From Deltaproteobacteria bacterium (lineage in GTDB: Bacteria > Myxococcota_A > Polyangia > DRWM01 > JAAZOP01), in the NCBI GenBank assembly GCA_016930215.1, contig JAFGHH010000565.1:1-41628 (forward strand): 41,628 bases of DNA, read 5' to 3'. A program made the translations under genes and the position numbers. Of this stretch, positions 5,098 through 30,902 are shown piece by piece; position 1 is the stretch's first letter; every line of letters starts with the position of its first letter. The notes beneath the pieces were generated by a model. The model did no database searches and had not been told where the DNA came from. It saw only the letters and a program-made list of their open reading frames with translations.

Positions 5098-7403
5098 GGC
5101 CCGGGCGCCTCCGGCGGCCGCTCTCCCCCGACTCCCAGCTCCTCCAGCAGCGCGGCGCCGTCGGCGACCCGGTCGAGGTACCACAGCGCGTAGCGCATGT
5201 CGCACAGGATGCTGCGCGACGTCGCCGGGTTGTACAGGTAGTCCCCGGACAGGTCCTCCCACACCCCGTCGAACAGCAGCCCGATCAGCTCGCCGCGCGC
5301 GTTGAGCGCCGGGGAGCCCGAGTTGCCGCCCGTGGTGTCGACGTCGGAGAGGAAGTTCACCGCCACCGTCCCCAGCGCGGGGTCGACCCAGCGGCCGAAG
5401 TCCCCGCGCCGCACCGCCTCGAGCACCGCCGGCGGCGAGGCGAACGGCTCCTCGCCCGTCTCCTTCTGCAGGAGCCCGGCCACCGTCGTGAACGGCACGT
5501 AAGCCGTCCCGTCCCCGGGCACGTACGCCCGCACGCTCCCCACCGTCAGCCGCAGCGTCCCGTTCGCGTCCGGGTACTGCGGCCGGCCACGGAACTCCCC
5601 GAGCGCCGCGACCAGCGGCGCGCGCAGCTCGGCCAGCGCCAGGTCGAACCGCTTGGCCCGCTCGAGCCGCGCGTCGAGTTCCCCGGCCAGCGCCAGCGCC
5701 AGCTTGATCAGCTCGTCCGCCGAGCCCTGCAGCTCCTCCAGCGGCTTGCCGAGCAGCCCCAGCCGGGCCTGCGTATCGCCCAGCGTCGTCCCGGCGTACA
5801 GCCGCGTGACGAACGCCTCCACCGCGGCGTCGGAGCGGTCCGCGCCCAGCGCCTCCTCGAGCGGCGCGATCCGCTGGCCCTCGGGGAGCGTCAGCGCCCG
5901 GCGCACGAACGCCGCGAACACCCGCCGGTCGCCCTCGACGTCGAGGCTCTTCTCGGCCGCCTCCATCTGGCGCCGGATCGGCTCCTCGTCGCGGTCCTGG
6001 TACCCCGGCTCGCGCTCCAGGTCGGGCTTCGGCCGCTCCTGCGCCCACTTGACGATCGTGTGGGCGAAGCCGAGCAGCTGGCTGCCGCGGACCAGGTAGC
6101 GCAGCAGGTAGTCGTGGTCGCGCAGCGCGCACCTCTCGGCCAGCACCGCGGCGATCCCGTCGAGGCCCGCCAGGCGGCCGGCGCGCGCGGGGTCCGCGGC
6201 CGCCCAGTCCCGGAACCGCGCCTCCTCCTCGAGCCGCGTCTCGAGCAGCCCGCTGCGGCGCAGCGCGGCGATCATCCCGGTGGCGTGCGAGTGCGCGTTG
6301 TGGATCCCCTTGAGCGTCGGCGCGTTGAGCAGCCGCGCCTCCTCGGAGCGCGCGCTCGCCGCCTCGAGCTCGGCAATCCACAGGCCGAACAGCTCGAGCC
6401 GCAGCGGGAACAGCCACTCCTGCGCCTCCTCCACCTCCGCCGCCGTCTGGTAGCGCTCGGTGGCCCAGGGGTAGCCCAGGACCAGCACCGGGTCGCCCGG
6501 GCCCACGCCGTCGGTGGCCACCGGCAGCCAGTGGGCCGGCCGGTACGGGACGTTCTCCGGGGCGAACGCGGCCGGGTTCCCGTCCGTGCCGACGTAGGCC
6601 CGCAGGAACGACCAGTCTCCCGTGTGCCGCGGCCAGTGCCAGTTGTCGACCTCTCCGCCATACTCGCCGACCCCCAGCGGCGGGTTGGCCACGAGCCGCA
6701 CGTCGGTCAGCTCCAGCGTCTCGAACAGCACGAACCGGCGCACCCCCGTCGGCGTTCCCTCCGGCAGCGGCCCGTAGGGCACGCCGTCGTTGAACCGCGC
6801 GACCCGGCAGCGCCGTCCGGCCGGCTCCTCGCACGCCGCCACCAGCGCCGCCTCGCGCTGCTCGATCGCCCGCACGCGCTCCAGCGGGTCCTCCGGCAGC
6901 TCCGCCGAGACCTCCGCCGTCACGTCGCGGAAGCCCAGCAGCACCTTGATCGTCGTCCCTTGACCGTCGAGCTCGTCCGCGCGCTGCTCCGCCACGAACC
7001 CATCGTCGACCAGGTTCCGCTCGGGGGTCGAGTTGCGGGAGACGATGTCGAAGGCGCAGTGGTGGTTGGTCGCCAGGAGTCCGTCGGGCGAGACGAACGA
7101 GGCGGTGCAGCCGTCGAGGTCGACGACGGCCTGGGCCGGCCCGCCGCCGTCGGCCCACAGCCGCGCCAGCGGCAGCTCGCGCCCCGCCTCGGCCTGGACG
7201 GTCTCGACCACGTCGAGCCGCCCCACGGGCCACATCCCCTCGCCGTTGCCGCGGAGGCCGCCGGCCACCTGGACCAGCCCGAAGTCGGCCGCCGGCAGCG
7301 TCGCCGGCACGGTGGGGCAGGGCGTCTGCGGACAGCCCGCCAGCAGGGCCAGCGCGAGCGGCGCCGCGGCGCAGGTGAGCCGGAATCGTCGGGTTCGAGA
7401 CAT
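5094..7403 (-). CDS. S46-family dipeptidyl-peptidase-like lipoprotein
   Basis: 769 residues. An N-terminal lipoprotein signal with lipobox LLAGC (Cys24) predicts envelope anchoring. The S46 chymotrypsin-fold triad regions are visible: His in LATNHHC near residue 114, Asp in the VDNWHWPRHTGDW region, and the nucleophile in TGGNSGSPALN near the C-terminus. This matches the DPP7/DPP11 family, which releases dipeptides from the N-terminus of oligopeptides in the periplasm. The start is supported by AAGGAGG about 6 nt upstream of the ATG. The 3' end overlaps the GH15 gene by 4 nt. The 5' end is divergent from the spermidine-synthase-like gene across 121 nt, which should hold both promoters; I could not fix either one. 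Confidence 0.92.
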   Translation of the reverse strand: MSRTRRFRLTCAAAPLALALLAGCPQTPCPTVPATLPAADFGLVQVAGGLRGNGEGMWPVGRLDVVETVQAEAGRELPLARLWADGGGPAQAVVDLDGCTASFVSPDGLLATNHHCAFDIVSRNSTPERNLVDDGFVAEQRADELDGQGTTIKVLLGFRDVTAEVSAELPEDPLERVRAIEQREAALVAACEEPAGRRCRVARFNDGVPYGPLPEGTPTGVRRFVLFETLELTDVRLVANPPLGVGEYGGEVDNWHWPRHTGDWSFLRAYVGTDGNPAAFAPENVPYRPAHWLPVATDGVGPGDPVLVLGYPWATERYQTAAEVEEAQEWLFPLRLELFGLWIAELEAASARSEEARLLNAPTLKGIHNAHSHATGMIAALRRSGLLETRLEEEARFRDWAAADPARAGRLAGLDGIAAVLAERCALRDHDYLLRYLVRGSQLLGFAHTIVKWAQERPKPDLEREPGYQDRDEEPIRRQMEAAEKSLDVEGDRRVFAAFVRRALTLPEGQRIAPLEEALGADRSDAAVEAFVTRLYAGTTLGDTQARLGLLGKPLEELQGSADELIKLALALAGELDARLERAKRFDLALAELRAPLVAALGEFRGRPQYPDANGTLRLTVGSVRAYVPGDGTAYVPFTTVAGLLQKETGEEPFASPPAVLEAVRRGDFGRWVDPALGTVAVNFLSDVDTTGGNSGSPALNARGELIGLLFDGVWEDLSGDYLYNPATSRSILCDMRYALWYLDRVADGAALLEELGVGGERPPEAPGP

Positions 7404-10226: not shown

Positions 10227-10304
10227 GGGGCGGTCGCCGCCGTCGCTTGAGCGGAACCGTCGAACCGTGATACCACGGCCCTCGTTCGCGAAGGAGTGAG
10301 AACC

Positions 10305-11189
10305 ATGTCGATCCTGGATCGGGCGCTGCAGCTGGGTCAGCAGGTCCTCGAGTATCCGAGCCGGCGGCCGGACGGCGAGCTGGTGGAAACGCCGCACCCG
10401 TACCGCCGGATGCTGCCGTTCATGATGCGCGGCCGGAACGAGTCCGTCGTCTACTACGACGACCCGGCCCGGGCCGAGAAGCTGCTGGACTTCATCCCGC
10501 GGGCGAGCCAGGCCTTCGGGTTCGAGGTGGACATCACGCACTGCCTGGTGGCCGCCTGCCGCAAGGGGCTCTGGGAGAACCCGCGGATGAACCAGTTCAT
10601 CGCGGGCCGCCGGCTGTACCGCCGGAAGCACAACGAGCTGACCTTCTCGATGAAGCGCAAGCGCATGGACAAGGAGGCCAAGCTCTCCGCGGTCAAGCTC
10701 GTCGTCGACGACCGCTCCGAGACGTTCCGCCAGCTCTGCGAGCGGATCAACTCCCACATCCACGTGGAGCGGTCCGGCGAGGAGACCTACAGCGACAAGG
10801 AGGTGAACCTCCTCTCGCGGATCCCGCGCCCGATCATGGACGCCGGGATCTCCGCGCTGCAGTGGCTCGACTACCACAATCTCGTGCCCGGCGGCTTCAT
10901 CCGCAACGACGGGTTCTACACCAGCATCTTCATCGCCAACCTGGGCAGCCTGGGCATGCACGCCGGGTACCATCACCTCTACGAGTACGGGACCTGCCCG
11001 CTGTTCATGATGGTCGGCAAGCTCGAGGACCGCGCGGTGGTCGAGGACGGGAAGATCGTGGCCCGCAAGTTCCTGCCGGTCCGCTGGACCTACGACGAGC
11101 GGATCGACGACGGGCTCACCTCGAAGTACGGCATGCAGTCCGTGCGCGAAGGCCTCGAGAACCCCGACGAGGCCTTCGGTCTCCTCTGA
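10305..11189 (+). CDS. Stand-alone E2/CAT-fold acyltransferase-like protein with altered active site
   Basis: 294 residues from the ATG at 10305, which has AAGGAG 8 nt upstream (a GTG at 10296 is less likely). The protein matches the catalytic domain of 2-oxoacid dehydrogenase E2 subunits without the lipoyl or peripheral-subunit domains: SIFIANLGSLG corresponds to the E2 block SNLGMFG, and WTYDERIDDG aligns with the E2 motif DHRVIDG. The catalytic His is therefore Glu. It ends 1 nt from the convergent last gene of the lipid operon. It could be an acyltransferase for that pathway, an N-acylation enzyme or a non-catalytic homologue; only the fold assignment is secure. Confidence 0.75.
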   Translation: MSILDRALQLGQQVLEYPSRRPDGELVETPHPYRRMLPFMMRGRNESVVYYDDPARAEKLLDFIPRASQAFGFEVDITHCLVAACRKGLWENPRMNQFIAGRRLYRRKHNELTFSMKRKRMDKEAKLSAVKLVVDDRSETFRQLCERINSHIHVERSGEETYSDKEVNLLSRIPRPIMDAGISALQWLDYHNLVPGGFIRNDGFYTSIFIANLGSLGMHAGYHHLYEYGTCPLFMMVGKLEDRAVVEDGKIVARKFLPVRWTYDERIDDGLTSKYGMQSVREGLENPDEAFGLL

Positions 11190-11190
11190 G

Positions 11191-12006
11191 TCAGCGCTTC
11201 GCGCCGGCCTTGCGGATGTCGCTGTCGAACATCGCGTGCGCGACGCCCGGCAGCATGCGGTAGGCCCACTCCTGGATCCGGGCCGAGGCGCTGGGCACGA
11301 TCTGGAACTGGCCCTTGGCCATGCCGGACACCAGCGCCTGGGCCACGTACTCGGCGGACAGTGCCTTCACGTTGCCCGCAATCGCCCGGGTCTCGGCCGG
11401 CTTGTACGGGTCCTCGAACTCGAGCTGCGGGGTCTCGGTGTCCGGCGGGTAGCAGACCGACACGCGGATGCCGAGCGGCTTCAGCTCGCAGCGCAGGGCC
11501 TGGGCGAACCCGCGGATCGCGAACTTGCTCGCCGAGTACGCCGTGTAGCCGTAGATGCCGATCAGGCCGGCGAACGACGACATCATCGCCACGTGCCCGT
11601 GCTTCCGCTCGAGCATGCCCGGCAGCACGGTCCGGATCAGGTGTACCGGCCCCAGGAAGTTCGTCTGCATCATGTCGTCGAACTGCCCGTCGGGCAGCTC
11701 GAGGAACCGGCCGGGCATCACCACGCCGGCGTTGCTGATCAGCACGTCCACCGGGAACCCGGCCAGGACCCCCGGGAGCTTCGCGTCCACGGCCGCCCGG
11801 TCGCGCAGGTCGAGCGACAGGGTCCGTACCGGCTCGGCGCCCGACGCGATCGTGTCCAGCTCGGACTTCGCCCGCGCCAGCTTCGCCTCGTCGCGGGCCA
11901 CGAGCAGCAGGTGCGCGCCCTGCCGGCGCAGCAGCCCGGCCGTCGCCAGACCGATGCCGCTCGAGCCGCCGGTCACCAGGACCCGTTCGTTCCGGAAGTA
12001 GTCCAT
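11191..12006 (-). CDS. 3-ketosphinganine reductase-like SDR (KDSR family)
   Basis: 271-residue short-chain dehydrogenase. TGGSSGIG (12-19) binds NADPH; the catalytic residues are Ser143/144, Tyr157 and Lys161 in YSASK. The stretches TAYSASKFAIRGFAQAL and CYPPDTETP followed by KPAETRAI closely resemble eukaryotic 3-ketodihydrosphingosine reductase (FVT1/KDSR), from memory of that sequence. The expected reaction is NADPH reduction of the 3-keto group made by an oxoamine synthase, and one is encoded by the first gene of this operon. It is the last gene, 68 nt after the ACP gene. A generic SDR role is possible, but the co-occurrence argues for sphingoid chemistry. Confidence 0.85.
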   Translation of the reverse strand: MDYFRNERVLVTGGSSGIGLATAGLLRRQGAHLLLVARDEAKLARAKSELDTIASGAEPVRTLSLDLRDRAAVDAKLPGVLAGFPVDVLISNAGVVMPGRFLELPDGQFDDMMQTNFLGPVHLIRTVLPGMLERKHGHVAMMSSFAGLIGIYGYTAYSASKFAIRGFAQALRCELKPLGIRVSVCYPPDTETPQLEFEDPYKPAETRAIAGNVKALSAEYVAQALVSGMAKGQFQIVPSASARIQEWAYRMLPGVAHAMFDSDIRKAGAKR

Positions 12007-12074: not shown

Positions 12075-12344
12075 TCAGGCCGCCTGCTCCTTCTCGACCG
12101 CCGTCTTGTGCAGCAGGTCCACCAGCTCGTTGACGTTGTTGAGCTTGGCGAGCTCGGCGCGCGGGACCTTGATCTTGAGGTCGCGCATCGTGCAGGAAAC
12201 CACCTCCACGATGTCCAGGCTGTTGGCCCCCAGCGCCTTCATCGACTTGGCCGGGTCGAACTTCGACTCGTCCATGTCCTCGACGTTGTCGGCCAGGTGC
12301 TGCTTGACGATCTTGAGGATCTCTTCCTTGGTCGGTGCTGCCAT
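12075..12344 (-). CDS. Acyl carrier protein, donor-ACP type of beta-branching cassettes
   Basis: 89 residues. The phosphopantetheine serine is S42 in GANSLDIVEVV; most ACPs have GADSLD or GxDSL. The Asn-Ser-Leu/Ile form followed by a MxxLxxKIPRxEL stretch is what I recall for donor ACPs of HMG-synthase cassettes (AcpK/CurB type). That fits the HMG-ACP synthase and two crotonases in the same operon. It is the only carrier protein in the cluster, so acceptor chains may come from the primary fatty-acid synthase ACP (inference). AcpS encoded in the operon is a plausible activator. Confidence 0.9.
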   Translation of the reverse strand: MAAPTKEEILKIVKQHLADNVEDMDESKFDPAKSMKALGANSLDIVEVVSCTMRDLKIKVPRAELAKLNNVNELVDLLHKTAVEKEQAA

Positions 12345-12406: not shown

Positions 12407-13219
12407 TTACAAGCCGTACTCGCCCCGATGCTCGAAGAGGCGCATGAGGTTATTGCCGAAACAGACCCCCTTGTCGAGCAGGATCACCTGCCCGGACACC
12501 GCGTCCATCAGACCGCTCGTCAGGGCCACGACCGCGTGTGCGACTTCGCTCGCCTCCAGCACGTAGTCGCCGCCGCCGTACTTCCGCAGGAACGGCTCGA
12601 ACTCCGGCCCGAAGGTCGCCTGCAGCGAGTCGGTGGACACGGGTCGCGCCCGCAGCACGTTCAGCCGGATGTCCTCGTCCCACAGCAGGGTGTTGAGGTA
12701 CCGGCAGAAGGTCTCCATGACCTTCTTCGAGGCGGCGACGAAGTCGTAGCCCGGGTAGTAGTCCTCCACGCCGTCGCTCGACAGGCCGATCGCGTACCGC
12801 GGGTACCGGCCGAAGACCTTGTGGTGGTGCTGCAGGTAGCCCACGAACGGCCAGGCGCTGTAGCCGATGCTCTTCTGCAGGGAGCGCCGCTGGTAGTCCT
12901 CCAGCGCGCCGGTCACCTGGGCGAAGGCGACGTTGCTCACCAGGACCTCGAGCCCCGCGTGGTCCTTGCGGATCGTCTCGAGGAGGCGGGTCGTGTCCGC
13001 ATCCTCGGCCACGTCGGCCTCGAGCACCACGGGGACGCCGGCGTCCGCCTCGGCGAACCGGGCGCGGACCGCGTCCTCCGGGACCGAGCCCCACTTGTGG
13101 GTCAGGTAGACGTGGGCGCCCAGGCGGCCGTAGGCGAGCCCGGTGGCCAGCCCGATGCCCTTGGTGCCGCCGGTGACCAGCACGGCCTTGCCGCGGAAGT
13201 CGTTGGGAAGTGCGATCAC
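12407..13219 (-). CDS. FabL-type enoyl-ACP reductase-like SDR, copy 1
   Basis: 270 residues from a GTG that overlaps the upstream TGA by 4 nt (GTGA at 13216-13219). TGGTKGIGLATG is the cofactor loop. The catalytic pattern is YX6K (YDFVAASK), as in FabI/FabL enoyl reductases, rather than the YX3K of ketoreductases. The C-terminal SGLMDAVSGQVILLDKG is also FabI/FabL-like. Predicted role: NAD(P)H reduction of an enoyl-ACP in the operon pathway. It is clearly a tandem paralogue of the next gene upstream, sharing the C-terminal NNLMRLFEHRGEYGL/DNLMRVYRHREEYGL block. It is followed by a 62-nt gap before the ACP gene. Confidence 0.85.
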   Translation of the reverse strand: MIALPNDFRGKAVLVTGGTKGIGLATGLAYGRLGAHVYLTHKWGSVPEDAVRARFAEADAGVPVVLEADVAEDADTTRLLETIRKDHAGLEVLVSNVAFAQVTGALEDYQRRSLQKSIGYSAWPFVGYLQHHHKVFGRYPRYAIGLSSDGVEDYYPGYDFVAASKKVMETFCRYLNTLLWDEDIRLNVLRARPVSTDSLQATFGPEFEPFLRKYGGGDYVLEASEVAHAVVALTSGLMDAVSGQVILLDKGVCFGNNLMRLFEHRGEYGL

Positions 13220-14025
13220 GGCAGTCCGTACTCCTCGCGGTGCCGGTACACCCGCATCAGGTTGTCCGCGAACGGGCTGCCCTTGTCCACGTTGAGGATC
13301 TGCCCGTTGAACGCGTCGAAGAGGCCGCTGCACAGGGCCAGGATCGCGTCCGCCACCTGCTCGCAGGTGATGAAGTGGCTCTCCCCGCCGTACCGCCGCA
13401 CGAACTCCGGGTACGCCTCGCCGTGCACGGCCAGGGCCGACTCGGTGAGCACGTTGCGGGTGCGCAGGATGTTGATCCGCGCCCCCTCGGGCGCGAGGTG
13501 CCGCACCAGGTACGGGCAGAGCGCCTCCATCACGGCCTTGGACAGCGCCACGTACTCGTAGCCCTGGTAGTAGTTGTCCGGCCCGTCGCTGGACGTGCCC
13601 ACGGTGTACCGCGGGTAGCGGCCGAAGGTCCGCTTGACGTGCTGCAGGTACGCGACCAGCGGCCAGGCGCTGTACTCGAGGCTCTTGTCCAGCGCGCGGC
13701 GGGAGTAGCTCTCCACGCCCTGGGCGATCTGCACCACGCACACGTTGCTGAGGAACACCTCGAGCCGCTCGTGGTCCTTCCGGACCTGCTCGAGCAGCGC
13801 GACGGTCTCCGGGTCCTTGGACACGTCGGCCTCGACGATCGCCGGCTCGGGCGCGCCCGCGGCCGCGAACTTCGCCCGAACCTCGGACTCGTCCGCCGAG
13901 CCCCACCGGTGGGTCAGGTAGCAGTGCGCTCCATGGCGGCCGAAGGCGAGGCCCGTGGCCAGGCCGATGCCCTTGGTGCCGCCGGTGATCAGCACGGCCT
14001 TGCCGTGGAAGTCGTTCAGGGTCAC
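13216..14025 (-). CDS. FabL-type enoyl-ACP reductase-like SDR, copy 2
   Basis: 269 residues; GTG start at 14025 overlapping the ECH2 stop (GTGA), with AAGGGGAG upstream. TGGTKGIGLATG cofactor loop; YX6K motif YEYVALSK; C-terminal SGLFDAFNGQILNVDKG. It is a diverged tandem duplicate of the downstream gene. Two enoyl reductases in one small operon suggest two different enoyl substrates, for example the straight-chain and the beta-methyl-branched enoyl-ACP (inference), or a heteromeric enzyme. Ketoreductase activity is less likely because a separate FabG gene is present. Confidence 0.85.
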   Translation of the reverse strand: MTLNDFHGKAVLITGGTKGIGLATGLAFGRHGAHCYLTHRWGSADESEVRAKFAAAGAPEPAIVEADVSKDPETVALLEQVRKDHERLEVFLSNVCVVQIAQGVESYSRRALDKSLEYSAWPLVAYLQHVKRTFGRYPRYTVGTSSDGPDNYYQGYEYVALSKAVMEALCPYLVRHLAPEGARINILRTRNVLTESALAVHGEAYPEFVRRYGGESHFITCEQVADAILALCSGLFDAFNGQILNVDKGSPFADNLMRVYRHREEYGLP

Positions 14026-14798
14026 GGGGTCTCCCCTTCCCGGCCCGGTTCCGGCCGCGTGTAGTTCTCGAGGATCCGCTGCCGGGTCTCGGGCTGCGCG
14101 AAGCACAGGCGGTGCATCGCCGCCTCCAGCGTCCGGGTCTCCTCGAACATCCGCCGGTGCCGGATCGACAGGTTCGCCTTGAGGGTCACCAGGGCGTGGC
14201 GCGGCTTGTCCGCGATGCGCTTCGCGATCTGCAGCGCCCTGGGCCACACCTGCTCCCGGGGCAGCACGTGGTTGACCCCGGACCGCGCCTCGAACCGCGC
14301 CCCCCGGATGATCTCGCCGCCGAACATCATCTCCCGCGCCAGGTACTCGCCCACCGCGTCCTGCAGCAGCCGCGTGATGCCCATGCCCGGCGTGAAGCCC
14401 ATGTTCATGAAGCTGCAGCCGTAGCGACTCTCGCGGGCCATCAGCAGCACGTCGCAGCACAGCCCGAGGGCGAGGCCGCCGCCCACCGCGTGGCCCTCCA
14501 TCGCAGCGATGGACGGCACGGGCAGGTCGAGCACCGCCTTGGAGAGCAGGATGTCCGCGGCGTCCACCTCGCCCGAGGTCAGCTCGAGCAGCAGGTCCTG
14601 GTGCGCCCCGGCGCAGAAGATCCCGGGCAGGCCGCGGAGCAGGATGACCCGCACCGACCCGTCCGTCGCGGCGGCCCGCAGGACCGCCTGCAGCTCGTCC
14701 ACGAACGGCTCCGTGAACGCGTTCCGGTTCGCCTCGTCCCGCATCGTCACCACGGCGATGCCGTCGTCCTCGCGGGCCAGGGTCACGCGCTCGGTCAT
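14022..14798 (-). CDS. ECH2 crotonase, PksI/CurF-type 3-methylglutaconyl-ACP decarboxylase
   Basis: 258-residue crotonase-fold protein. FMNMGFTPGMGITRLL, the AADILLSKAVLDLPVPSIAA stretch and ADKPRHALVTLK closely match the ECH2 enzymes of polyketide beta-branching (PksI, BaeI, MupK, CurF domain), which decarboxylate 3-methylglutaconyl-ACP to a 3-methylcrotonyl-type product. The second Glu typical of hydratases is missing from the FxxMGFTPG region, as expected for ECH2. The ATG has GGGAGG upstream and overlaps the ECH1 stop by 4 nt. The adjacent HCS and ECH1 genes make an ordinary fatty-acid oxidation hydratase unlikely. Confidence 0.85.
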   Translation of the reverse strand: MTERVTLAREDDGIAVVTMRDEANRNAFTEPFVDELQAVLRAAATDGSVRVILLRGLPGIFCAGAHQDLLLELTSGEVDAADILLSKAVLDLPVPSIAAMEGHAVGGGLALGLCCDVLLMARESRYGCSFMNMGFTPGMGITRLLQDAVGEYLAREMMFGGEIIRGARFEARSGVNHVLPREQVWPRALQIAKRIADKPRHALVTLKANLSIRHRRMFEETRTLEAAMHRLCFAQPETRQRILENYTRPEPGREGETP

Positions 14799-15583
14799 TC
14801 GTTCCTCCCGCGGAGCGTCCGCCACCACGGCGCCGGCTCGCCCTCCAGGAAAGCGCGGAGCGCGGCGACCCGCTCGGGGTCGCCCACCAGGGCCGCGGTG
14901 TGATCCGCCCCGAGGTGCAGGCCCCGGTCGGGGTCGTGCGCGGCCACCGCGTCGCCGAGCGCCTTGAGTCCGGCCACCGCCTCCGGACAGGCGCGCAACA
15001 GGTGCCGGAGGATCGGCCGCAGCGCGCGCTCGAGCAGCGCCGGGTCCTCCACCAGGTGGTCGGCCAGGCCCAGCTCGACGGCCCGCCGCCCGTCCACGCC
15101 GCTCGTCAGGGCGAGCCACCGCGCCCGGCGCGGGCCCAGGCGCTCGTGGAGGATCGGGAGGATCACCGCGGGCACCAGGCCGAGGGCCACCTCGGGCAGG
15201 GCGAAGGTCGCCTGGGCCGTCGCCACCACGACGTCCGCGACCGCGGCCAGGCCCACCCCGCCACCCAGCGCCGCGCCGTCCACCACGGCCACCACGGGCC
15301 GCGGCGAGCGCCGCAGCCGCCCCAGCAGGGAGGCGAACGCATGGACGTGCTGGGCCGCGTCCGGGGCGCCGTCCGCCACGGCCTGGAGGTCCATCCCCTC
15401 GCAGAACGTGCCGTCCGTGCCCTCGAGCACGAGCACCCGGCACTCGTCGCTCGCCTCCGCCCCGGCCACGGCAGCCTCCAGCGCGGCCACGCCGGCGGCG
15501 TCGAGGCGGATGTGCCCGCCTTCCCCGGGCGCGAGCCGGACGCGGTGGACCGCGGGATCCCCCCTGTCGACCGCGACCCGCAT
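14795..15583 (-). CDS. ECH1 crotonase, PksH/CurE-type HMG-ACP dehydratase
   Basis: 262-residue crotonase. VLEGTDGTFCEGMDLQAV and ALGGGVGLAAVADVVVAT followed by FALPEVALGLVPAVILPILHERLG match ECH1 enzymes (PksH, CurE), which dehydrate 3-hydroxy-3-methylglutaryl-ACP to 3-methylglutaconyl-ACP. The hydratase-type Glu in ALPEVALGL is kept. Its ATG shares one base with the HCS stop (TGATG), so translation is coupled. Order HCS-ECH1-ECH2 is the classical cassette order. A generic enoyl-CoA hydratase is the alternative, less likely in this context. Confidence 0.83.
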   Translation of the reverse strand: MRVAVDRGDPAVHRVRLAPGEGGHIRLDAAGVAALEAAVAGAEASDECRVLVLEGTDGTFCEGMDLQAVADGAPDAAQHVHAFASLLGRLRRSPRPVVAVVDGAALGGGVGLAAVADVVVATAQATFALPEVALGLVPAVILPILHERLGPRRARWLALTSGVDGRRAVELGLADHLVEDPALLERALRPILRHLLRACPEAVAGLKALGDAVAAHDPDRGLHLGADHTAALVGDPERVAALRAFLEGEPAPWWRTLRGRNE

Positions 15584-16827
15584 CAGCTCCACCCGTACTC
15601 CCGGAAGTGGTTCTTGATGCCCTGGAACACCAGCGCGCCCCGGCCCGCGTACCGCTCCGCGTAGTGGCCGGCCGGGACGTCGTGCGTGGGCACGTAGTCC
15701 CCGCAATCGATCAGGCGCTGCCGCTCCCGCTCGAGCGTCTCGTACTCCTCGAGGGTGAGCACGCGGCGGGCGTCGAGCTGCGCCTGGAGCTTCACCGCGG
15801 CGCAGGCGGCCCGGGCGTCCGGGCCGATGACCCCGGGGTAGAACTCGCCGCCCGACCCCGAGCCGTAGGAGAACAGGCTGACCCGGTCCCCGGGCTTCAC
15901 GTCGGGGCAGGAATCGACCAGTCCGAGGAGCGCGAAGAACGTGCTGGCCGAGTAGGTGCCGCCGAGCTGCATGTTGTAGCGCAGCGAGGGCAGGACCTTG
16001 CGCGAGAAGTGCGCGTAGGCCTCGCTCTTCTTGAGCGACCGCCAGTGGCGCAGGGCCGTGCGGTGGGCCTGGAAGGCCATGCCGCCGAAGGGCACGTGGT
16101 ACAGGTGCCACTGGAAGAACGCGTCGAGGTCGATCGGCCCGGCCTTGGACAGGAAGTGCTGGTAGGCCCCTTCGAGGGCGTCGAGGTACGAGAACAGGCT
16201 GACCTCGTTGTTCCCGGTCTCCACGCGCGACGTGGGCCGGAAGGTGTCCATCGCCTCGCAGGTGAAGTAGCCGTTCCGGGTCAGGTCGAGCTGCAGGAGC
16301 CGGGGCTCCTCGGAGAGCAGCAGCGCCACCGCCCCCGCGCCCATCACGTACTCGTAGTGCTCGTTCAGGCTCTCGCGGCTCTGGTCGGTGGCGATCACCA
16401 GCGCCTTCCGGCCGGGCGCCACGCCGGAGGCGAGCCAGTGCGCGGCCATCATCACGGCCGAGGTGGCGCCGTAGCAGGCGTGCTTGGCCTCGTAGTTGCG
16501 GCAGTTCGGCTTGAGCCCCAGGAAGCGATGCGCGTAGGTGCTCATCGCCTTGCTCTGGTCCACCGACGATTCGGTGGCCACGATCACCAGCTCGACGGCC
16601 TCGCGGTCGGCGTCGGTCAGCATCCCCTTCGCCGCGTTGATCGCCATCGTGACCGGGTCCTCCCACAGCGGGTTGATCGACCGCGAGGTCACCAGCAGAT
16701 TCTGCGAGATGTCCTTCGGGTCGTGGTCCCGGCGGCGGGCGAGGTCGAGCAGGTCCACGGCGAGCGTGCCGGCGTAGGCCCCGATCTTCTCGATGCCGAC
16801 CTGGCTCAGGCGCGGGTTCGTGGTCAT
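15583..16827 (-). CDS. HMG-ACP synthase (HCS) of the polyketide beta-branching type
   Basis: 414 residues, thiolase-fold. The acylatable cysteine is C118 in EAKHACYGATSAV, the catalytic Glu lies in ATESSVDQSKA (about residue 86), and the catalytic His is H244 in WHLYHVPFGGM. These are the PksG/CurD/MvaS signatures. With ECH1, ECH2 and a donor ACP alongside, it most likely adds an acetyl unit from acetyl-ACP to the beta-keto group of an acyl-ACP. No HMG-CoA reductase or mevalonate gene is nearby, which argues against a mevalonate role. It lies 23 nt after fabG, with GGAG about 11 nt before the ATG. Confidence 0.92.
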   Translation of the reverse strand: MTTNPRLSQVGIEKIGAYAGTLAVDLLDLARRRDHDPKDISQNLLVTSRSINPLWEDPVTMAINAAKGMLTDADREAVELVIVATESSVDQSKAMSTYAHRFLGLKPNCRNYEAKHACYGATSAVMMAAHWLASGVAPGRKALVIATDQSRESLNEHYEYVMGAGAVALLLSEEPRLLQLDLTRNGYFTCEAMDTFRPTSRVETGNNEVSLFSYLDALEGAYQHFLSKAGPIDLDAFFQWHLYHVPFGGMAFQAHRTALRHWRSLKKSEAYAHFSRKVLPSLRYNMQLGGTYSASTFFALLGLVDSCPDVKPGDRVSLFSYGSGSGGEFYPGVIGPDARAACAAVKLQAQLDARRVLTLEEYETLERERQRLIDCGDYVPTHDVPAGHYAERYAGRGALVFQGIKNHFREYGWS

Positions 16828-16850: not shown

Positions 16851-17591
16851 TCAGGCGGCGTGGTCCAGGCCGCCGGTGACGGAGATCTCCGCGCCGTTGA
16901 CGTAGGAGGCCGCCGGGGAGGCGAGGAAGGTGATCACGCCGGCGATCTCGGACACGTTGCCGATGCGCCGGATCGGGCAGTAGGCGGCCCAGAAGTCGCG
17001 GAACTTGTCGGTCATCGACTCCCGCGTCATCTCGGTGTCGAAGAAGCCGGGAATCACCACGTTGGCCGTGATGCCCTTGGGGCCGTACTCCTTGGCCAGC
17101 GTCTTGGTCAGCCCGACGATGCCCGCCTTCGCCGCGGCGTAGTTGGCCTGGCCCGACGCGCCCCCGGCGGAGACCGAGGACACGTTGATGATCCGGCCGA
17201 AGCGGTTGACCAGCATCCCCGTCAGGAAGAACCGGCTCACGTAGAACGGGCCGTGCAGGTTGGTGGCCAGCACGTCGTGCCACTCCTCGTCGGACATCGA
17301 GACCACGAGGTTGTCGCGGTTGATGGCCGCGTTGTTCACGACGACCTCCGGGTCGCCCAGGTCCGCCTGGATCTGCTCGCCCACGCGCTCCACCTCGGCG
17401 GCGCTCCGCACGTCCATGCGGTAGGCCTTGACCCGGCTACCCGCGCGCAGCGCGGCGGCCTCGGCCGCCACGGCCGCGGCCTTCTGCTCGCTGCCCAGGT
17501 AGGTGAACGCCACGTCGTGCCCCTCGGAAACGGCCCGGCGCACGACCTCGGCGCCGATTCCGCGAGAGCCCCCGGTCACGAGGAACAGCAT
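16851..17591 (-). CDS. fabG: 3-oxoacyl-ACP reductase (FabG-like)
   Basis: 246-residue classical SDR of FabG length. TGGSRGIG cofactor loop, VNNAAINRD, and the Ser-Tyr-Lys triad in NVSSVSAGGASGQANYAAAK (YX3K). C-terminal GAEISVTGGLDH. It reduces 3-ketoacyl-ACP with NADPH. AGGGAGG lies just upstream of the ATG. It sits between the ketosynthase (19 nt gap) and HCS genes, so it competes with HCS for the same 3-ketoacyl-ACP: reduction leads to a straight chain, HCS to a branch (inference). The product in the cluster could also be the hydroxyacyl intermediate fed to the FabZ-like enzyme. Confidence 0.9.
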   Translation of the reverse strand: MLFLVTGGSRGIGAEVVRRAVSEGHDVAFTYLGSEQKAAAVAAEAAALRAGSRVKAYRMDVRSAAEVERVGEQIQADLGDPEVVVNNAAINRDNLVVSMSDEEWHDVLATNLHGPFYVSRFFLTGMLVNRFGRIINVSSVSAGGASGQANYAAAKAGIVGLTKTLAKEYGPKGITANVVIPGFFDTEMTRESMTDKFRDFWAAYCPIRRIGNVSEIAGVITFLASPAASYVNGAEISVTGGLDHAA

Positions 17592-17610: not shown

Positions 17611-18891
17611 CTAGTCCGGCTTGCGGAACAGCGCGCAGCAGTTGATGCCGCCGAAGCCGAACGAGTTCTTCAACAGGGTCCGCACCGGGTGCACGACGGC
17701 CCGGTTGGCGCAGACGTCGAGGTCCACCTCGGGGTCGAGGCGGTCGATGTTGATCGAGGGGTGCAGGGTGCCGTGCCGCATCTGCAGCAGCGCGGCCACG
17801 GTCTCGGTGGCCGGCGCGGCCCAGCAGGTGTGGCCCAGCATCGATTTGGTGGCGTTGATCTTCAGCTTCTGCGCGTGGCTGCCGAAGACCTCCTTGATCG
17901 ACCGGATCTCCGCGACGTCGCCGAGCGGCGTGGACGTCGCGTGGGCGCTCACGTAGTCGACTTCCTCGGGCCGGACGCCGGTGCTCCGGAGCAGCCGGCG
18001 CATCGTCCGCGCCTGCCCCTCCACCGAGGGCACCGGCAGGTGCGACCCGTCCGAGCCCGTGGACACGCCGAGCACCTCGGCGTGGAGGCGCGCGCCGCGG
18101 CGCCGCGCGTGCTCGAGCTCCTCCAGCACCAGCACCCCGGTGCCGTGGGCCGGGATGAACCCTTCGCGGTCCGCGTCGTAGGGCCGGCTGGCACGGTGCG
18201 GCTCGTCGTGGAAGGCCTTCCAGGAGATGGCACCCATGATCGCCATCGCCTGCAGGTCCACCGGCGAGAAGTCGAGCACCGCCCCGGCGACGATCATCAC
18301 GTCGAGGTCGTGGTACCGGATCTCGTCGAGCGCGTTGCGCAGCGCCAGGTTCGCGCTCGCGCACGCCCCGCCCATCGTGTAGACGGGCCCGTGCAGGCCC
18401 AGCGCGTCGCCCACGCTGGCGGCCTGGTCGGTGTCGAGCCCGTGCAGGGCCAGCATCGAGTCGATGTACTCCGGCTCCACGGTGAACTGGACGTTGTTGC
18501 GGTACACCAGGTTGTTGGCGAGGTTGTGGCCGCCGACCACCACGCCGGTGCGATCCGGGTCGTAGCCCTCGGGGAGCCCGGCATCGAGCATCCCGTCGGC
18601 GGCGCAGAGCAGCGTGAGCCGCGTGGAGAACGGCGCCTTCTTGACCAGCCGCCGGAGCCGCTTCGTCACGTCGGCGGGCAGCCGCGACGCGAGCGCGTCG
18701 AGCTTCGCCGCCGTGTCGTAGCCCGTGAGGTCGCCGCCGACCTTGGAGAGGCTCCGGTCCGCACCCTCGAACCTCCACCGGGTGATGGCCGACTTCCCGG
18801 CGATCAGGTTCCCGTAGAAGGTGTCCAGCGTGTCCCCGATCGGGACGTTGATCGCCATGCCGCTGACCACCACGCGCCTCGCCTTCTCCAT
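17611..18891 (-). CDS. Beta-ketoacyl-ACP synthase (FabF/KAS-II type)
   Basis: 426 residues. The condensing-enzyme triad is complete: Cys in GGACASANLAL, His in SAHATSTPLGD and His in KSMLGHTCWAAP. The stretch GGHNLANNLVYRNNVQF recalls ketosynthases of HMG-synthase cassettes. In many of those cassettes a companion ketosynthase has Ser in place of Cys and only decarboxylates malonyl-ACP; here Cys is retained, so the enzyme may elongate as well as supply acetyl-ACP. It is the only ketosynthase in the operon. AAGGA precedes the ATG. The context gives no chain-length factor and no second subunit. Confidence 0.9.
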   Translation of the reverse strand: MEKARRVVVSGMAINVPIGDTLDTFYGNLIAGKSAITRWRFEGADRSLSKVGGDLTGYDTAAKLDALASRLPADVTKRLRRLVKKAPFSTRLTLLCAADGMLDAGLPEGYDPDRTGVVVGGHNLANNLVYRNNVQFTVEPEYIDSMLALHGLDTDQAASVGDALGLHGPVYTMGGACASANLALRNALDEIRYHDLDVMIVAGAVLDFSPVDLQAMAIMGAISWKAFHDEPHRASRPYDADREGFIPAHGTGVLVLEELEHARRRGARLHAEVLGVSTGSDGSHLPVPSVEGQARTMRRLLRSTGVRPEEVDYVSAHATSTPLGDVAEIRSIKEVFGSHAQKLKINATKSMLGHTCWAAPATETVAALLQMRHGTLHPSINIDRLDPEVDLDVCANRAVVHPVRTLLKNSFGFGGINCCALFRKPD

Positions 18892-18918: not shown

Positions 18919-19452
18919 CTACGCCTCGAGCTCGTACGCTTCCATGATCGCGAACGCCACCAGGGTCTCGTCCCGGAGGACCTGCCCGGCGAGGGTCTCG
19001 GTGTAGCCCCCGGGCTCGTCGAGGAGCCGGCCGACCAGCGTCAGCCGGTCGCCGGGCCGCGCCTCGGCCAGGAACGACGCGTGGTGCAGCTTGAGCAGCC
19101 GCACCGACCGCGGCCGGTCCTCGGGCGCGGGCGCGGTCCGACCCGAGAGGGCGAGCTGGCTGATGCAGAGCCCGAGCTGCCCCATCGCCTCGAGCAGCAG
19201 CACCCCGGGGAAGACCGGGTCGCCGGGGAAATGGCCGACCAGCACCGGGTCCGCGGGGTCCACGGTCCGGGTGCCGAGCGCGGCGCGGGCCGCCAGGTCC
19301 ACGGCGTGGATGCGGTCCACGAGCAGGAACGGCGGCCGGTGCGGGATCAGCCGCTCGATCTCGGCGCGACCCAGGTCCACCGCGACCGTCGCCTCGCCCG
19401 CGGTGAAGAGCGGCCGCTTCCGGCCGACCTTGATCAGTTGCTCGAACTCCAT
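18919..19452 (-). CDS. fabZ: FabZ-like 3-hydroxyacyl-ACP dehydratase
   Basis: 177-residue hot-dog protein. LIPHRPPFLLVDRI and GHFPGDPVFPGVLLLEAMGQ carry the catalytic His and Glu of FabZ/FabA. The ATG at 19452 (MEFEQLIK) is preferred; 12 further codons upstream are open but not conserved. It is slightly longer than typical FabZ because of an N-terminal extension before the LIPHRPP block and a mid-protein APEDRPRS insertion. It dehydrates 3-hydroxyacyl-ACP to trans-2-enoyl-ACP, the substrate of the two enoyl reductases. 27 nt separate it from the ketosynthase gene. Confidence 0.92.
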   Translation of the reverse strand: MEFEQLIKVGRKRPLFTAGEATVAVDLGRAEIERLIPHRPPFLLVDRIHAVDLAARAALGTRTVDPADPVLVGHFPGDPVFPGVLLLEAMGQLGLCISQLALSGRTAPAPEDRPRSVRLLKLHHASFLAEARPGDRLTLVGRLLDEPGGYTETLAGQVLRDETLVAFAIMEAYELEA

Positions 19453-19468
19453 CGGGGCTCCGGGAGAA

Positions 19469-20431
19469 TCAGTTCGTGCGGAACGCATGCAGGCGCAGCG
19501 ACTCGATCACGGTCGATAGGTGCTCGAGCGGTACGTCGCCGCTGTCCACGAACAGCTTCTCGTTGCGCCGCCACTTCCGGTCCAACATGTTGTGCAGGAC
19601 CTTCTTGGGCCCGACCTCGAGGAAGAACGCGTCCGGGTGAAGCTCGGCGATCCGGTCGATCGATTTGCGCCAGAAGGTCCGGTTGCAGACGTGCGTCGAG
19701 AGCAGCTCGATGAACGTCTCGCGGTCCGGGTCGTTGATCAGCTCGCCCAGCCGGTTGGGCACGTACGGCCGCCCCGGCCGGCGGAACTCGAGCCCCTCGA
19801 GGTATCCGCGGAACGCCCGACACACCGGCTCGAACATCGAGCTGTGCATCGGCAGCTGGTGGTCGATCATCACCGCCTGCGCGAAGTACTCCGCCTCGAG
19901 CAGCCGCAACGCCTCCTTCACGGCGTCGTGCTCCCCCGCGATCACGTACTGGCGCGGCGTGTTCAGGTTCACCACCTCGACCAGGCCCGCCGACCGCGCC
20001 CGGGCGACCACGTCGTCGAGCTCCTCGAGCTCGATCGGGAACACCGACGCCATGCAGCCGCGCGGCCCCTGGTCGTAGAGCATCCCGCGCTGCTCCACCG
20101 CCCGCAGCGCGTCCTCGAAGGTCAGCGCGCGGATGTGCACCAGGTGGTTCCACTCGCCGAGGCTCAGGCCCAGGGAAAGCGCCGCGTTGACCCCCGACGC
20201 CTCCAGCACCTGCAGGAACATGTGGTTGGCCAGGAACACGCTGACCTGCACGTCGCGGTTCGTCGCGTAGGCGTCCGGGTTGTCGACCCGGTACTGCTCG
20301 TAGAGGTTGCGGTTCAGGATGTGCGAGGCCCAGTCCAGCACGTGCCGGTTGACTCGGTGCAGGCCCGTCAGCTTCTCCAGCATGCCGGGATAGCGCGAGT
20401 TCTGGCCGGGGAACATGAAGACCAACGTCAT
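19469..20431 (-). CDS. Acyl/malonyl-ACP transferase (FabD-like) with GLSLG nucleophile motif
   Basis: 320 residues. It begins with FMFPGQNSRYPGM, as FabD/AT domains do. The nucleophile elbow reads GLSLG where nearly all relatives have GHSLG or GHSIG; the Ser is intact. The catalytic His appears in LPMHSSMFEP, and the Arg that binds malonyl carboxylate in FabD is present in VEQRGMLYDQ. Predicted role: load malonyl onto the operon ACP. The His-to-Leu change in the elbow might alter activity or favour hydrolysis, as in trans-acting editing ATs; this is not resolved. The ATG overlaps the acpS stop by 4 nt. Confidence 0.85.
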   Translation of the reverse strand: MTLVFMFPGQNSRYPGMLEKLTGLHRVNRHVLDWASHILNRNLYEQYRVDNPDAYATNRDVQVSVFLANHMFLQVLEASGVNAALSLGLSLGEWNHLVHIRALTFEDALRAVEQRGMLYDQGPRGCMASVFPIELEELDDVVARARSAGLVEVVNLNTPRQYVIAGEHDAVKEALRLLEAEYFAQAVMIDHQLPMHSSMFEPVCRAFRGYLEGLEFRRPGRPYVPNRLGELINDPDRETFIELLSTHVCNRTFWRKSIDRIAELHPDAFFLEVGPKKVLHNMLDRKWRRNEKLFVDSGDVPLEHLSTVIESLRLHAFRTN

Positions 20432-20805
20432 GGCATCACCATCACACAGGCCACGGAGTAGTCGGTCTCGTGGCTGATCGAGAGCAGGGTCGTGAACGAC
20501 CGGGAGCCGGTCACCCGCTCCAGGTCGGCCCGCAGCTCGGGACTGCGCACCGCAAGCTCCGGTTGCCCCGTCGAACGATGGACGACCTCGAGTCGGCTGA
20601 GGTCGTAGCCGAGCACGCTGAGGCCCACCGCCTTGAGGCAGGCCTCCTTGGCCGCCCAGCGCGCCGCGAGGTGCTGCTCCGGCACCCGCGCCCCGGCACA
20701 GTACTCCACCTCCGCCGGAGAGAAGACCTCGTCCCGGAGGAACGGCGAGCGCTCGAGCGCCTTCCTCAGGCGCGCCGTGGAGCAGATGTCGATGCCCAGG
20801 AACAT
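20428..20805 (-). CDS. acpS: Holo-ACP synthase (AcpS-type phosphopantetheinyl transferase)
   Basis: 125 residues, normal AcpS length. FLGIDICSTARLRKAL holds the metal-binding Asp, and LAARWAAKEACLKAVG is the signature helix with the catalytic Glu. SISHETDYSVACVM is the C-terminal strand. It transfers the phosphopantetheine arm from CoA to the conserved serine of ACP, here probably S42 of the operon ACP. It starts 13 nt after the oxoamine synthase gene and overlaps the AT gene (ATGA). Having its own AcpS suggests that the operon is self-sufficient. It may be the genome's only AcpS or a dedicated one; the window does not tell. Confidence 0.92.
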   Translation of the reverse strand: MFLGIDICSTARLRKALERSPFLRDEVFSPAEVEYCAGARVPEQHLAARWAAKEACLKAVGLSVLGYDLSRLEVVHRSTGQPELAVRSPELRADLERVTGSRSFTTLLSISHETDYSVACVMVMP

Positions 20806-20818
20806 CGGATCTCCGCCC

Positions 20819-22303
20819 CTACTGCTTCCAGATCCGACCGAGGACCTGCCGGGCCTTGCCGGTCACCTCGTCGGCCACGGCACCGGAGAGCTGCCGCAGC
20901 GTGTCCACCTTGCCCCGCCAACCCGCGGCCACCGCCGTCCCCGGCAACGGGGCCGTGGTCGGGATCGTGGTCGTGGTCGTGGTCGTCGTCGTCGTCGTCG
21001 TCGGGATCGTGGTCCCCGTCGATGCCGGTTGCGCCGGCTGCGCGGCCTTGGCCCGCGCCGGGAACAGCCGCCGCACGATCGTGTCCTCGATGATCGCCAC
21101 CGCCTCGTCCAGGTCCCGCTTCGTGTGCGCCGCCGTGACCGCCGCCCGGTACCGGAGCTGGTCCTCGGGCACCGACGGGTAGTCCACGGGGGCGAGGAAC
21201 AGGCCCTTCTCCTGCATCTCGTGACACAGCTCATAGAGCATCTGCCGGTCCGAGCCGATCACGATCGGGACCACGTGGGTCGTGGATTGGCCCAGGTTCA
21301 GACCGAGGTCCAGAAGCTTCTTCCGGAAGTACGCGGTGTTCTCGCGGAGCCGATTGCGGCGTTCGTCGTCACGCGTCGCCAGCTCGAGCGCCGTGAGCAG
21401 GCCGGCCACCACGGACGGCGGCAGCGCGCAGGAGAAGCCGTAGGGGTGCGAATAATAGCGCAGGTAGTCGATCGTGTCCGCGTTGCCGCTGACGAACCCG
21501 CCCACCGAGGCGAAGCCCTTGCTGAACGTGGCGAACACCAGGGCCACCCGGTCCTCGACGCCGAAGTGCTCGGTCACGCCGCGACCGTGGGCGCCGCAGG
21601 CCAGGATCGAGTGCGCCTCGTCGATCATCACGCCGACGCCGTGCTTCTCGGCAACCTCGAGCAGCGCCGGCAGGTCGGCCATGTCCCCGTCCATCGAGTA
21701 GATGCCCTCGACCACCACGATGCGGCGCTTGCCGGCCGTCGCCGCCAGGGCCTCGTCCAGGGATTTCGGGTCGTTGTGGTCGAAGAACACGCTCTTGGCG
21801 CGAGCCAGGTTGGGCCCCGCGATCAGGCACAGGTGGCACTTGGCGTCCAGGATCGCCACGTCGCCCTTGCGCAGCAACCCGGCCAGACAGCCCATCGCCC
21901 CGCCGAACCCGCTGTTGAACAACATCGTCGCCGGCCGCTGCATGAACGCCGAGAGCCGCTCCTCGAGCCGCGCGTGCAGGTCCGTCTTGCCCGACAACAG
22001 CGGCGAGCCGCAGGCGCCCGTGCCGTAGCGGTCGAGGGCCTCCTGCGCGGCCCGGATGACCTGCGGGTCCTCGGCGAACGCCATGTAGTTGTACGAGCTC
22101 AGGTTGATGGCCGAGTGGACGGCACCCCCCCGCTCGACCCGGACCCGCGGGCCGGCCGGACCACGAAGCCGCGGCTCGTACAGGCTGGTGGCCCAGGCCG
22201 TGGCCTTCCTCCAGGCCACGTACTCGGCCGGCGGCACCAGCGGGTCGCTGCTGTCGCTGAAGAAGAAATCAGCCAGGCTGTAGTCGGCGGTGCGCTCACC
22301 CAT
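20819..22303 (-). CDS. Alpha-oxoamine synthase (serine palmitoyltransferase-like) with poly-Thr tail
   Basis: 494 residues, fold-type I PLP enzyme. LSSYNYMAF, GTGACGSPLLSG, the PLP-stacking His in DAKCHLCL (about 157), MIDEAHSILACGAHGRG and the PLP lysine K262 in FATFSKGFASVGGF are diagnostic of the AOS family (SPT, KBL, BioF). It condenses an acyl thioester with an amino acid with loss of CO2 to a 3-keto-amine. A KDSR-like reductase in the operon points to SPT-type chemistry; the adjacent ACP suggests acyl-ACP as donor. After residue 425 a Pro/Thr linker with 12 consecutive Thr (435-446) leads to an amphipathic tail (461-494), not part of the family core. The ATG at 22303 is chosen because homology starts there; the frame is open 86 codons further upstream without similarity. 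Confidence 0.9.
   Translation of the reverse strand: MGERTADYSLADFFFSDSSDPLVPPAEYVAWRKATAWATSLYEPRLRGPAGPRVRVERGGAVHSAINLSSYNYMAFAEDPQVIRAAQEALDRYGTGACGSPLLSGKTDLHARLEERLSAFMQRPATMLFNSGFGGAMGCLAGLLRKGDVAILDAKCHLCLIAGPNLARAKSVFFDHNDPKSLDEALAATAGKRRIVVVEGIYSMDGDMADLPALLEVAEKHGVGVMIDEAHSILACGAHGRGVTEHFGVEDRVALVFATFSKGFASVGGFVSGNADTIDYLRYYSHPYGFSCALPPSVVAGLLTALELATRDDERRNRLRENTAYFRKKLLDLGLNLGQSTTHVVPIVIGSDRQMLYELCHEMQEKGLFLAPVDYPSVPEDQLRYRAAVTAAHTKRDLDEAVAIIEDTIVRRLFPARAKAAQPAQPASTGTTIPTTTTTTTTTTTTIPTTAPLPGTAVAAGWRGKVDTLRQLSGAVADEVTGKARQVLGRIWKQ
20966..21001 (-). repeat. Trinucleotide repeat encoding 12 threonines
   Basis: The plus strand reads as tandem GTC/GTG triplets, which the minus strand reads as ACC/ACG/ACGAC-type Thr codons in the oxoamine synthase linker. 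The run is flanked on both sides by a copy of GGGATCGTGGTC, encoding ThrThrIlePro or its neighbour. Length change in multiples of three would alter only the linker length. Confidence 0.85.
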
Positions 22304-30712: not shown

Positions 30713-30902
30713 TTCGTCCTCCTCCCTGTCGACTCGACTGCCCGGTTGGGCAGGGGGATGCGTAGCAAGGTCCGATCCACCGCTGTGCGAGCTGCCGCTG
30801 CGCGAGGTCGGCACCGGATTCCGGGCAGTTGCGGCGCGACGCGCGGAAATCCCGGCCGGTGTTCGCGGCGGTCCGCGATGCGATGGAACCTGGTGTTACC
30901 TC

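Follow-up and report, generated by a model that had tools for sequence, protein, structure and literature searches.

We analysed a 41,628-bp stretch of DNA from a Deltaproteobacteria bacterium, referred to below as the window, which is an entire contig (C141 in our set) of a 6.4-Mb metagenome-assembled genome (MAG) comprising 611 contigs (84% complete, 3.3% contamination). On the minus strand lies a gene cluster that runs from an alpha-oxoamine synthase (AONS) gene starting at 22303 to a KDSR-like short-chain dehydrogenase/reductase (SDR) gene ending at 11191, with its two ends located ∼19 and ∼11 kb from the contig ends. Within it, three genes encode a 3-hydroxy-3-methylglutaryl (HMG)-acyl carrier protein (ACP)-synthase-type enzyme similar to CurD and PksG (HCS; 15583–16827), a crotonase-fold dehydratase (ECH1; 14795–15583) and a crotonase-fold decarboxylase (ECH2; 14022–14798). 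HCS and ECH1 overlap by 1 base and ECH1 and ECH2 by 4 bases, and ECH2 overlaps the following gene, SDR1, by another 4 bases. A first-pass annotation had placed an HCS-ECH1-ECH2 cassette at 14022–16827, in the canonical order and translationally coupled, and its placement of the genes proved exact.

The trio is part of a complete type II set that is present as one overlapping gene run on the same strand, in which many adjacent genes overlap by 1 to 20 bases. The AONS, a pyridoxal phosphate (PLP)-dependent enzyme of the SPT/KBL/BioF superfamily (20819–22303), is followed by an AcpS-type phosphopantetheinyl transferase (20428–20805; NCBIfam TIGR00556, 62.6 bits over a cut-off of 45.4), a malonyl-transferase-like acyltransferase (AT; 19469–20431; Acyl_transf_1, 2e-13, with MdcH and FabD models below their cut-offs), a FabZ/FabA-like dehydratase (DH; 18919–19488; FabA-like domain, 4e-15, with FabZ models below cut-off), the only ketosynthase (KS) of the cluster (17611–18891) and a FabG-like ketoreductase (16851–17591; TIGR01830, 1.8e-74, below cut-off). 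Downstream of the trio are two FabI-like SDRs, SDR1 (13216–14025), a proposed enoyl reductase with weak matches to FabL and FabI models below their cut-offs, and SDR2 (12407–13219), assigned by NCBIfam and motif. Both carry a Y-x6-K motif, which is present in 61 of 61 SDR1/SDR2 homologues. The run closes with the only ACP of the cluster (12075–12344) and the KDSR-like SDR (11191–12006), a proposed 3-keto reductase for the AONS product, for which the 3-ketodihydrosphingosine reductase model NF049977 (103 bits, below cut-off) ranks behind general SDR models. In the AT, the motif GHSxGE is replaced by GLSLGE (Leu for His, before the nucleophilic Ser region), and GLSLGE is found in 26 of 30 aligned cluster ATs.

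Distribution of the cluster in other genomes

One scan of genome contigs yielded 34 related loci, and more came from searching 59 relatives and 377 phylum genomes; loci read twice were counted once (L038/L052, L039/L051, L040/L055, L043/L068, L044/L072 and L108/L061). Among the 39 loci are six isolate or strain records and one MAG of Nannocystis, as well as Plesiocystis pacifica, MAGs of Sandaracinaceae and Polyangia, and further MAGs with the labels Terriglobia, Bacteroidetes, Sphingobacteriaceae and Eisenbacteria; judged by HCS cluster, the nearest relatives carry the label Myxococcota. Since some loci are near-identical (L054/L058, L064/L067, L055/L063 and the six Nannocystis records), independent events are fewer than loci. 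Genes of the relatives were predicted with a simple purpose-made caller, so that some genes scored as missing may be missed calls.

In 30 of the 39 loci, sequence extends for 4 kb or more to either side of HCS. Within this subset, KS, FabG, DH, ECH1 and ECH2 were each detected in 29, two SDRs in 28, the ACP in 27, the AT in 26, the AONS in 22 and the KDSR-like SDR in 5. Three unrelated genes separate the HCS-ECH1-ECH2 trio from the remainder in L042, and ECH2 and its neighbours look frameshifted in L059. In the three same-genus genomes of the relatives set, only an MvaS-like HCS copy (38–41% identity) was found, and the distribution of the cluster is thus patchy.

The five-part beta-branching cassette

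HCS matched CurD (1e-86) and PksG (2e-74) best in the PDB, with the best CoA-type synthase at ∼4e-57, and ECH2 matched CurF-ECH2 (1e-44) and PksI (3e-42); ECH2 also exceeded the curated cut-off of the NCBIfam model PRK07110 ‘polyketide synthase’ (295 versus 215 bits). For ECH1 the best PDB match was 4nnq (1e-36), which we take to be LnmF, while PksH was weaker (5e-16) and ranked behind several CoA hydratases. AlphaFold models of HCS and ECH2, built only from sequences of this cluster family, reached a pLDDT of 90.7 and 91.1, respectively. Comparison with known enzymes, which the first-pass annotation had proposed as a check, returned CurD, PksG and VirC as the nearest folds of HCS (places 1–12, before any MvaS) and CurF and PksI as those of ECH2 (places 1–15).

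In a tree of 55 rows, the 39 HCS rows from such clusters formed a clade with 100/100 support, apart from both the CurD/PksG and the MvaS-like rows, and the HCS of a Sandaracinus plasmid (L106) fell with CurD and PksG in a separate clade. Two further HCS-like genes of the source genome (G000:C315 and G000:C176; L046 and L047), which are 38–41% identical to the window HCS, grouped with the MvaS-like rows. HCS shares its fold and catalytic triad with the HMG-CoA synthase MvaS but differs from it in its separate clade and in the lower sequence and fold scores of MvaS, and a CoA-type HMG-CoA synthase identity was rejected by tree and fold.

The expected hallmarks of PksG, PksH and PksI were largely borne out at the catalytic residues. 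Glu86, Cys118 and His244 of HCS are invariant across 24 aligned cluster HCSs. For ECH1, the counterparts of PksH Asp68 and Glu137, located by motif rather than by direct alignment with PksH, are Asp in 32 of 34 and Glu in 34 of 34 aligned sequences. ECH2 His229 corresponds to PksI His230, and the His is kept in 29 of 30 sequences, the exception being a frameshifted copy. The Tyr82/Lys86 pair of CurF is missing, as the two positions read Leu/Leu in ECH2, whereas the column of ECH2 Lys87 is Lys or Arg in all 30. PksI depends on His230 and works without the CurF-type lysine, as its K80A and K232A variants remain active while H230A is impaired (PMC7501309), and we therefore rejected the reading that ECH2 is dead for want of Lys86. 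All three genes are thus intact, and sequence and predicted fold alike place HCS and ECH2 closest to the ACP-type enzymes CurD/PksG and CurF/PksI.

The KS and the ACP also belong to families known from modular polyketide synthase (PKS) clusters. The best NCBIfam model for the cluster KS was PRK07103, below its cut-off, and the same model was the best for four ketosynthases at the KS0 position of modular clusters, of which two exceeded the cut-off. A KS tree of 42 rows, which included one FabF but not the FabF-like KS of the source genome (L118), grouped 32 cluster KSs in a 100/99 clade; these joined five KS0-position rows and L105_15 in a larger clade (100/98) that stood apart from FabF and from the KS domains of type I enzymes. 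Branching inside this larger clade is unsure because of several long KS0 branches, the single FabF and the weak join of KS0 with L105_15 (83/13). The cluster KS belongs to the KS0 family but is not a Cys-less decarboxylating KS0, as the active Cys and both His residues are present in 33 of 33 aligned cluster KSs (of at least 300 aa, which leaves aside the pieces in L063 and L071), while the KS0s of Sandaracinus, thiomarinol and Eleftheria read GGASASG. The single NCBIfam match of the cluster ACP was PRK07117 (65 bits versus a cut-off of 79), which is also matched by the donor-position ACPs of the thiomarinol plasmid and the Eleftheria cluster. Each locus has one ACP of this donor type, and separate donor and acceptor ACPs were not found within the clusters.

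The standard cassette has been described as a donor ACP, KS0, HMGS and ECH1, with ECH2 in several systems (PMC12560621), and modular clusters keep the gene order ACP-KS0-HCS-ECH1-ECH2 in whole or in part. The cassette in the window is accordingly better described by five parts (ACP, KS, HCS, ECH1 and ECH2) than by the three genes originally named, and all but ECH1 are assigned by sequence to modular beta-branching families. Compared with the modular HCS (HMGS) cassettes of bacillaene (PksG-I), curacin (CurD/CurF), thiomarinol (pTML1) and virginiamycin (VirC), it shares the five homologous parts, the HCS-ECH1-ECH2 order, the catalytic Glu-Cys-His of HCS and the His of ECH2. It differs in having a KS with Cys, one ACP and no modular PKS, and in acting within an iterative type II system that includes FabG, DH and a pair of SDRs resembling enoyl reductases. 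Because the separate donor ACP, the Cys-less KS0 and the modular partner were not found, we regard it as a variant rather than a plain member of the HCS cassettes.

Two further loci look intermediate between the type II and modular arrangements. In L105 (G397:C159), the region at 4.9–20 kb contains HCS-ECH1-FabG-ECH2-SDR-ACP-KS, in which the KS has Cys, and a type I PKS gene of 1339 aa comes next, while L107 (G207:C35) has the layout HCS-ECH1-FabG-ECH2-SDR-DH.

The alpha-oxoamine synthase and sphingolipid genes

The best PDB match of the AONS was the serine palmitoyltransferase (SPT) of Sphingobacterium (3a2b, 2.7e-75), and it is ∼34% identical to E. coli Spt. The AONS tree, which took in L132, L133 and L134 from the unlinked AONS loci (L124, L125 and L132–L136) and was thus built without L124 and L125 of the source genome itself, did not place the AONS inside the SPT clade. 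An outright identification as SPT was not adopted, as the tree sets the cluster AONSs apart from SPT, KBL and BioF. The AONS of L076 grouped at 100/100 with unlinked AONSs of three genomes whose clusters have none (G013, G048 and G056), which is suggestive only. One locus, L104 (G108:C116), has two AONS genes, one from each subclade of cluster AONSs, and the window AONS has a C-terminal extension of ∼85 residues with a long threonine run.

Because the AONS is closest to SPT in the PDB yet falls in its own clade, we examined the linkage of the cluster with sphingolipid genes. The sphingolipid proteins of E. coli BL21, with roles as given in PMC9386255, were compared by blastp with all genes called in the loci. 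Homologues of the N-acyltransferase YghO were found beside the cluster in 6 of the 39 loci (L055, L061, L070, L072, L076 and L079), those of AasR and AcpR in 2 (L061 and L070) and those of the ketosphinganine reductase Epi in 8 (L053, L055, L056, L057, L062, L072, L077 and L078), with a further Epi homologue as split pieces in L059. YghO homologues are also located ∼6 kb from HCS in the genomes G380 and G391. The presence of YghO alone is not special, since homologues occur in 156 of the 377 phylum genomes, but its repeated placement within ∼8 kb of HCS is.

Another candidate lies next to the KDSR-like SDR. CATL (10296–11189) is a protein of the 2-oxoacid-dehydrogenase-acyltransferase fold without a lipoyl domain, and is present in 163 of the 377 phylum genomes. 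At the position that we take to be that of the usual catalytic His of related acyltransferases, it reads Glu (DERIDDG) in the three sequences inspected. Twelve genomes of the 377-genome set carry the type II system, ten placed by tree and two (G380 and G391) by 49–50% identity only; 8 of the 12 have YghO and 4 have CATL, including one with both, and one has neither. CATL is at most a tentative candidate for a replacement ceramide N-acyltransferase, given how common it is and the Glu in place of the catalytic His.

Two known systems resemble this part of the cluster. An iterative type I PKS together with an AONS makes sphinganines, and a KDSR-like SDR has been proposed for the next step (PMC12134224). 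PfSgaAB/SgaC of Pseudomonas fluorescens MYb115 shares the release of a PKS chain by an AONS, the nearby KDSR-like reductase and the proposed sphinganine output, but consists of one iterative type I PKS, with HCS not mentioned in the excerpted text of that paper, whereas a type II set with beta-branching is found here. The rhodobacterial set spt, acpR, aasR, epi and aca likewise pairs a PLP-dependent acyltransferase with a dedicated ACP, SPTs being reported to prefer an acylated dedicated ACP, and homologues of its Epi, Aca (YghO), AasR and AcpR adjoin several relatives of the cluster; it differs in that AasR activates a preformed fatty acid, whereas the chain here appears to be built de novo (PMC9386255). 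No published equivalent of the whole arrangement was found in searches of open-licence PMC papers, and the text of PMC12224551, which describes conserved Myxococcota clusters, contains neither HMG nor sphingolipid nor oxoamine.

Proposed pathway and alternative explanations

The locus is genuine and conserved, and its role would be more specific than earlier proposed, namely that of a free-standing type II synthase with beta-branching that is linked to an alpha-oxoamine synthase. From the directly observed gene content, gene order, clades, catalytic residues, conservation and linkage to sphingolipid-gene homologues, we propose, with a probability of roughly two-thirds, that it encodes its own iterative type II chain builder, which includes a beta-branching cassette and supplies a sphingoid-type lipid pathway. 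AcpS would activate the single ACP, and AT, judging from its family, would load it with malonyl. The KS would decarboxylate malonyl-ACP to acetyl-ACP, serving both chain priming and donation to HCS, and would also elongate the chain. In ordinary cycles the ketone would be reduced by FabG, DH and an enoyl reductase of the SDR type. At least once during chain growth, HCS would add acetyl to the 3-ketoacyl-ACP ahead of FabG, presumably using ACP thioesters with the one ACP as both donor and acceptor, after which ECH1 would dehydrate, ECH2 would decarboxylate and one of the two enoyl reductases would saturate the 3-methyl-enoyl-ACP. The AONS would then join the branched acyl chain, delivered by the ACP, to an amino acid, for which serine is the likeliest choice given the sphingolipid-gene linkage, and a final reductase, KDSR-like here or CerR-like in Nannocystis and Plesiocystis, would yield a branched sphingoid base. 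A housekeeping ACP encoded elsewhere could act as a partner of the cluster ACP.

Much of the first-pass annotation is retained in this proposal. It had described only type II single-domain genes around the trio, which is correct, although it overlooked the AONS and the AcpS as well as the donor family of the ACP and the KS0 family of the KS. It had suggested beta-branching of a 3-ketoacyl-ACP in competition with FabG, which is the natural reading as the cassette is embedded in a type II synthase that is complete in itself and has FabG adjacent, and the layout recurs in most of the readable relatives; the substrates, on the other hand, would come from the cluster's own AT-DH-KS-FabG-ER-ER-ACP set (ER, enoyl reductase) rather than from primary fatty acid synthesis. 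A free fatty chain as the destination has given way to a sphingoid-type product, for which the AONS and the sphingolipid-type genes make a likelier case.

Several observations weigh against our proposal. The AONS is below all NCBIfam cut-offs, and the tree groups 24 cluster rows in a separate clade (99/97) that excludes both E. coli Spt and the SPT of Sphingobacterium. The AONS is absent from the cluster in L041, L049, L052, L055, L064, L067 and others, and the KDSR-like SDR occurs in only 5 of the 39 loci, namely the window and L049, L052, L065 and L074. No YghO homologue was found in the source genome as recovered. L066 has HCS-ECH1-ECH2 only, with the rest of the set absent, and L069 resembles it, but with just 2.7 kb of sequence upstream. 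The Lys86 of CurF is not conserved in ECH2, and the use of a single ACP and the decarboxylation by the KS are predicted from sequence.

A special case of the proposal is that the trio works solely on the first acetoacetyl-ACP, converting it through 3-methylcrotonyl- to isovaleryl-ACP, so that the synthase would supply its own iso-primer and an ordinary iso-branched long-chain base would result. Iso-branched lipids are typical of myxobacteria and a KASIII-type priming gene is not among the cluster genes, but the sequences do not fix the cycle in which branching occurs and, as an argument rather than data, leucine-derived isovaleryl-CoA would be a cheaper route to the same end; we consider this restriction to the first cycle possible, though clearly on the unlikely side. 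Less probable still is a secondary metabolite other than a sphingolipid, in which the AONS would release an alpha-aminoketone to be cyclised or tailored later. The separation of the AONS clade from SPT and the several loci without a ketosphinganine reductase or YghO homologue nearby would fit such a product, whereas the homologues of ceramide genes are repeatedly close to the cluster and recurring tailoring genes were not seen among the inspected flanks.

We regard a CoA-linked set acting on HMG-CoA and methylglutaconyl-CoA, for mevalonate or for leucine-independent isovaleryl-CoA, as very improbable. HCS is homologous to HMG-CoA synthase, and PksH and PksI accept CoA substrates in vitro (PMC7501309), but HCS goes with the ACP-type enzymes by sequence, tree and fold, the source genome has the two other MvaS-like genes, and the gene run itself also encodes a KS, an AcpS and an ACP of the donor family. 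That the cassette works for a modular PKS located elsewhere in the genome is similarly improbable. Trans-acting cassettes can reach distant partners and the recovered genome lacks 16%; L052, alone among the clusters, also has a fragment of a type I PKS gene ∼9 kb from HCS. However, the matches in the 39 loci included no further PKS-like gene longer than 900 aa, and PF00109 detected just two clear FabF/PKS-type ketosynthases in the recovered genome, the cluster KS and another in a 545-residue open frame, with three weak partial matches. The earlier statement that the window holds no modular PKS was confirmed, and a modular PKS just outside it, named there as grounds for abandoning the idea, was rejected for the source genome as far as recovered, since none was found on the contig or in the 84% of the genome available.

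HCS cassettes are usually viewed as accessories of modular PKSs, and a conserved, stand-alone version with one ACP and an active KS offers a minimal setting in which to study the timing of HCS against ketoreduction, whether a single ACP can serve as donor and acceptor alike, and the origin of KS0. An active KS would be the simpler ancestral state because FabF has Cys. We tentatively suggest, at somewhat less than even odds, that free-standing, single-ACP, iterative type II beta-branching builds methyl-branched sphingoid lipids and shares an ancestor with the modular five-gene cassette, KS0 being an elongating KS minus its cysteine and the donor ACP a former sole carrier. If this is true and branching recurs every few cycles, an isoprenoid-like sphingolipid chain would be made with no isoprenoid enzymes. 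Methyl-branched sphingoid lipids are predicted in Nannocystis exedens DSM 71, N. pusilla DSM 53165 and Plesiocystis pacifica SIR-1, and as these cultured strains carry the cluster, the prediction is testable.

Among the genes outside the cluster, a ferredoxin-reductase-like flavoprotein with a 2Fe-2S domain (22699–23910) and a CrtI-family FAD oxidoreductase (23907–25412) lie upstream of the AONS on the same strand. No counterpart of either was found beside the clusters of relatives, and they may be unrelated or local tailoring genes. An S46 peptidase (5094–7403), a kelch-repeat protein (27401–30814) and a PLP-dependent (Pyridoxal_deC) decarboxylase (36816–37943) showed no tie to the cluster. 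At either end of the contig is an AAA_14/DUF4143 ATPase (1856–3034 and 34287–35756), and the two belong to one family.

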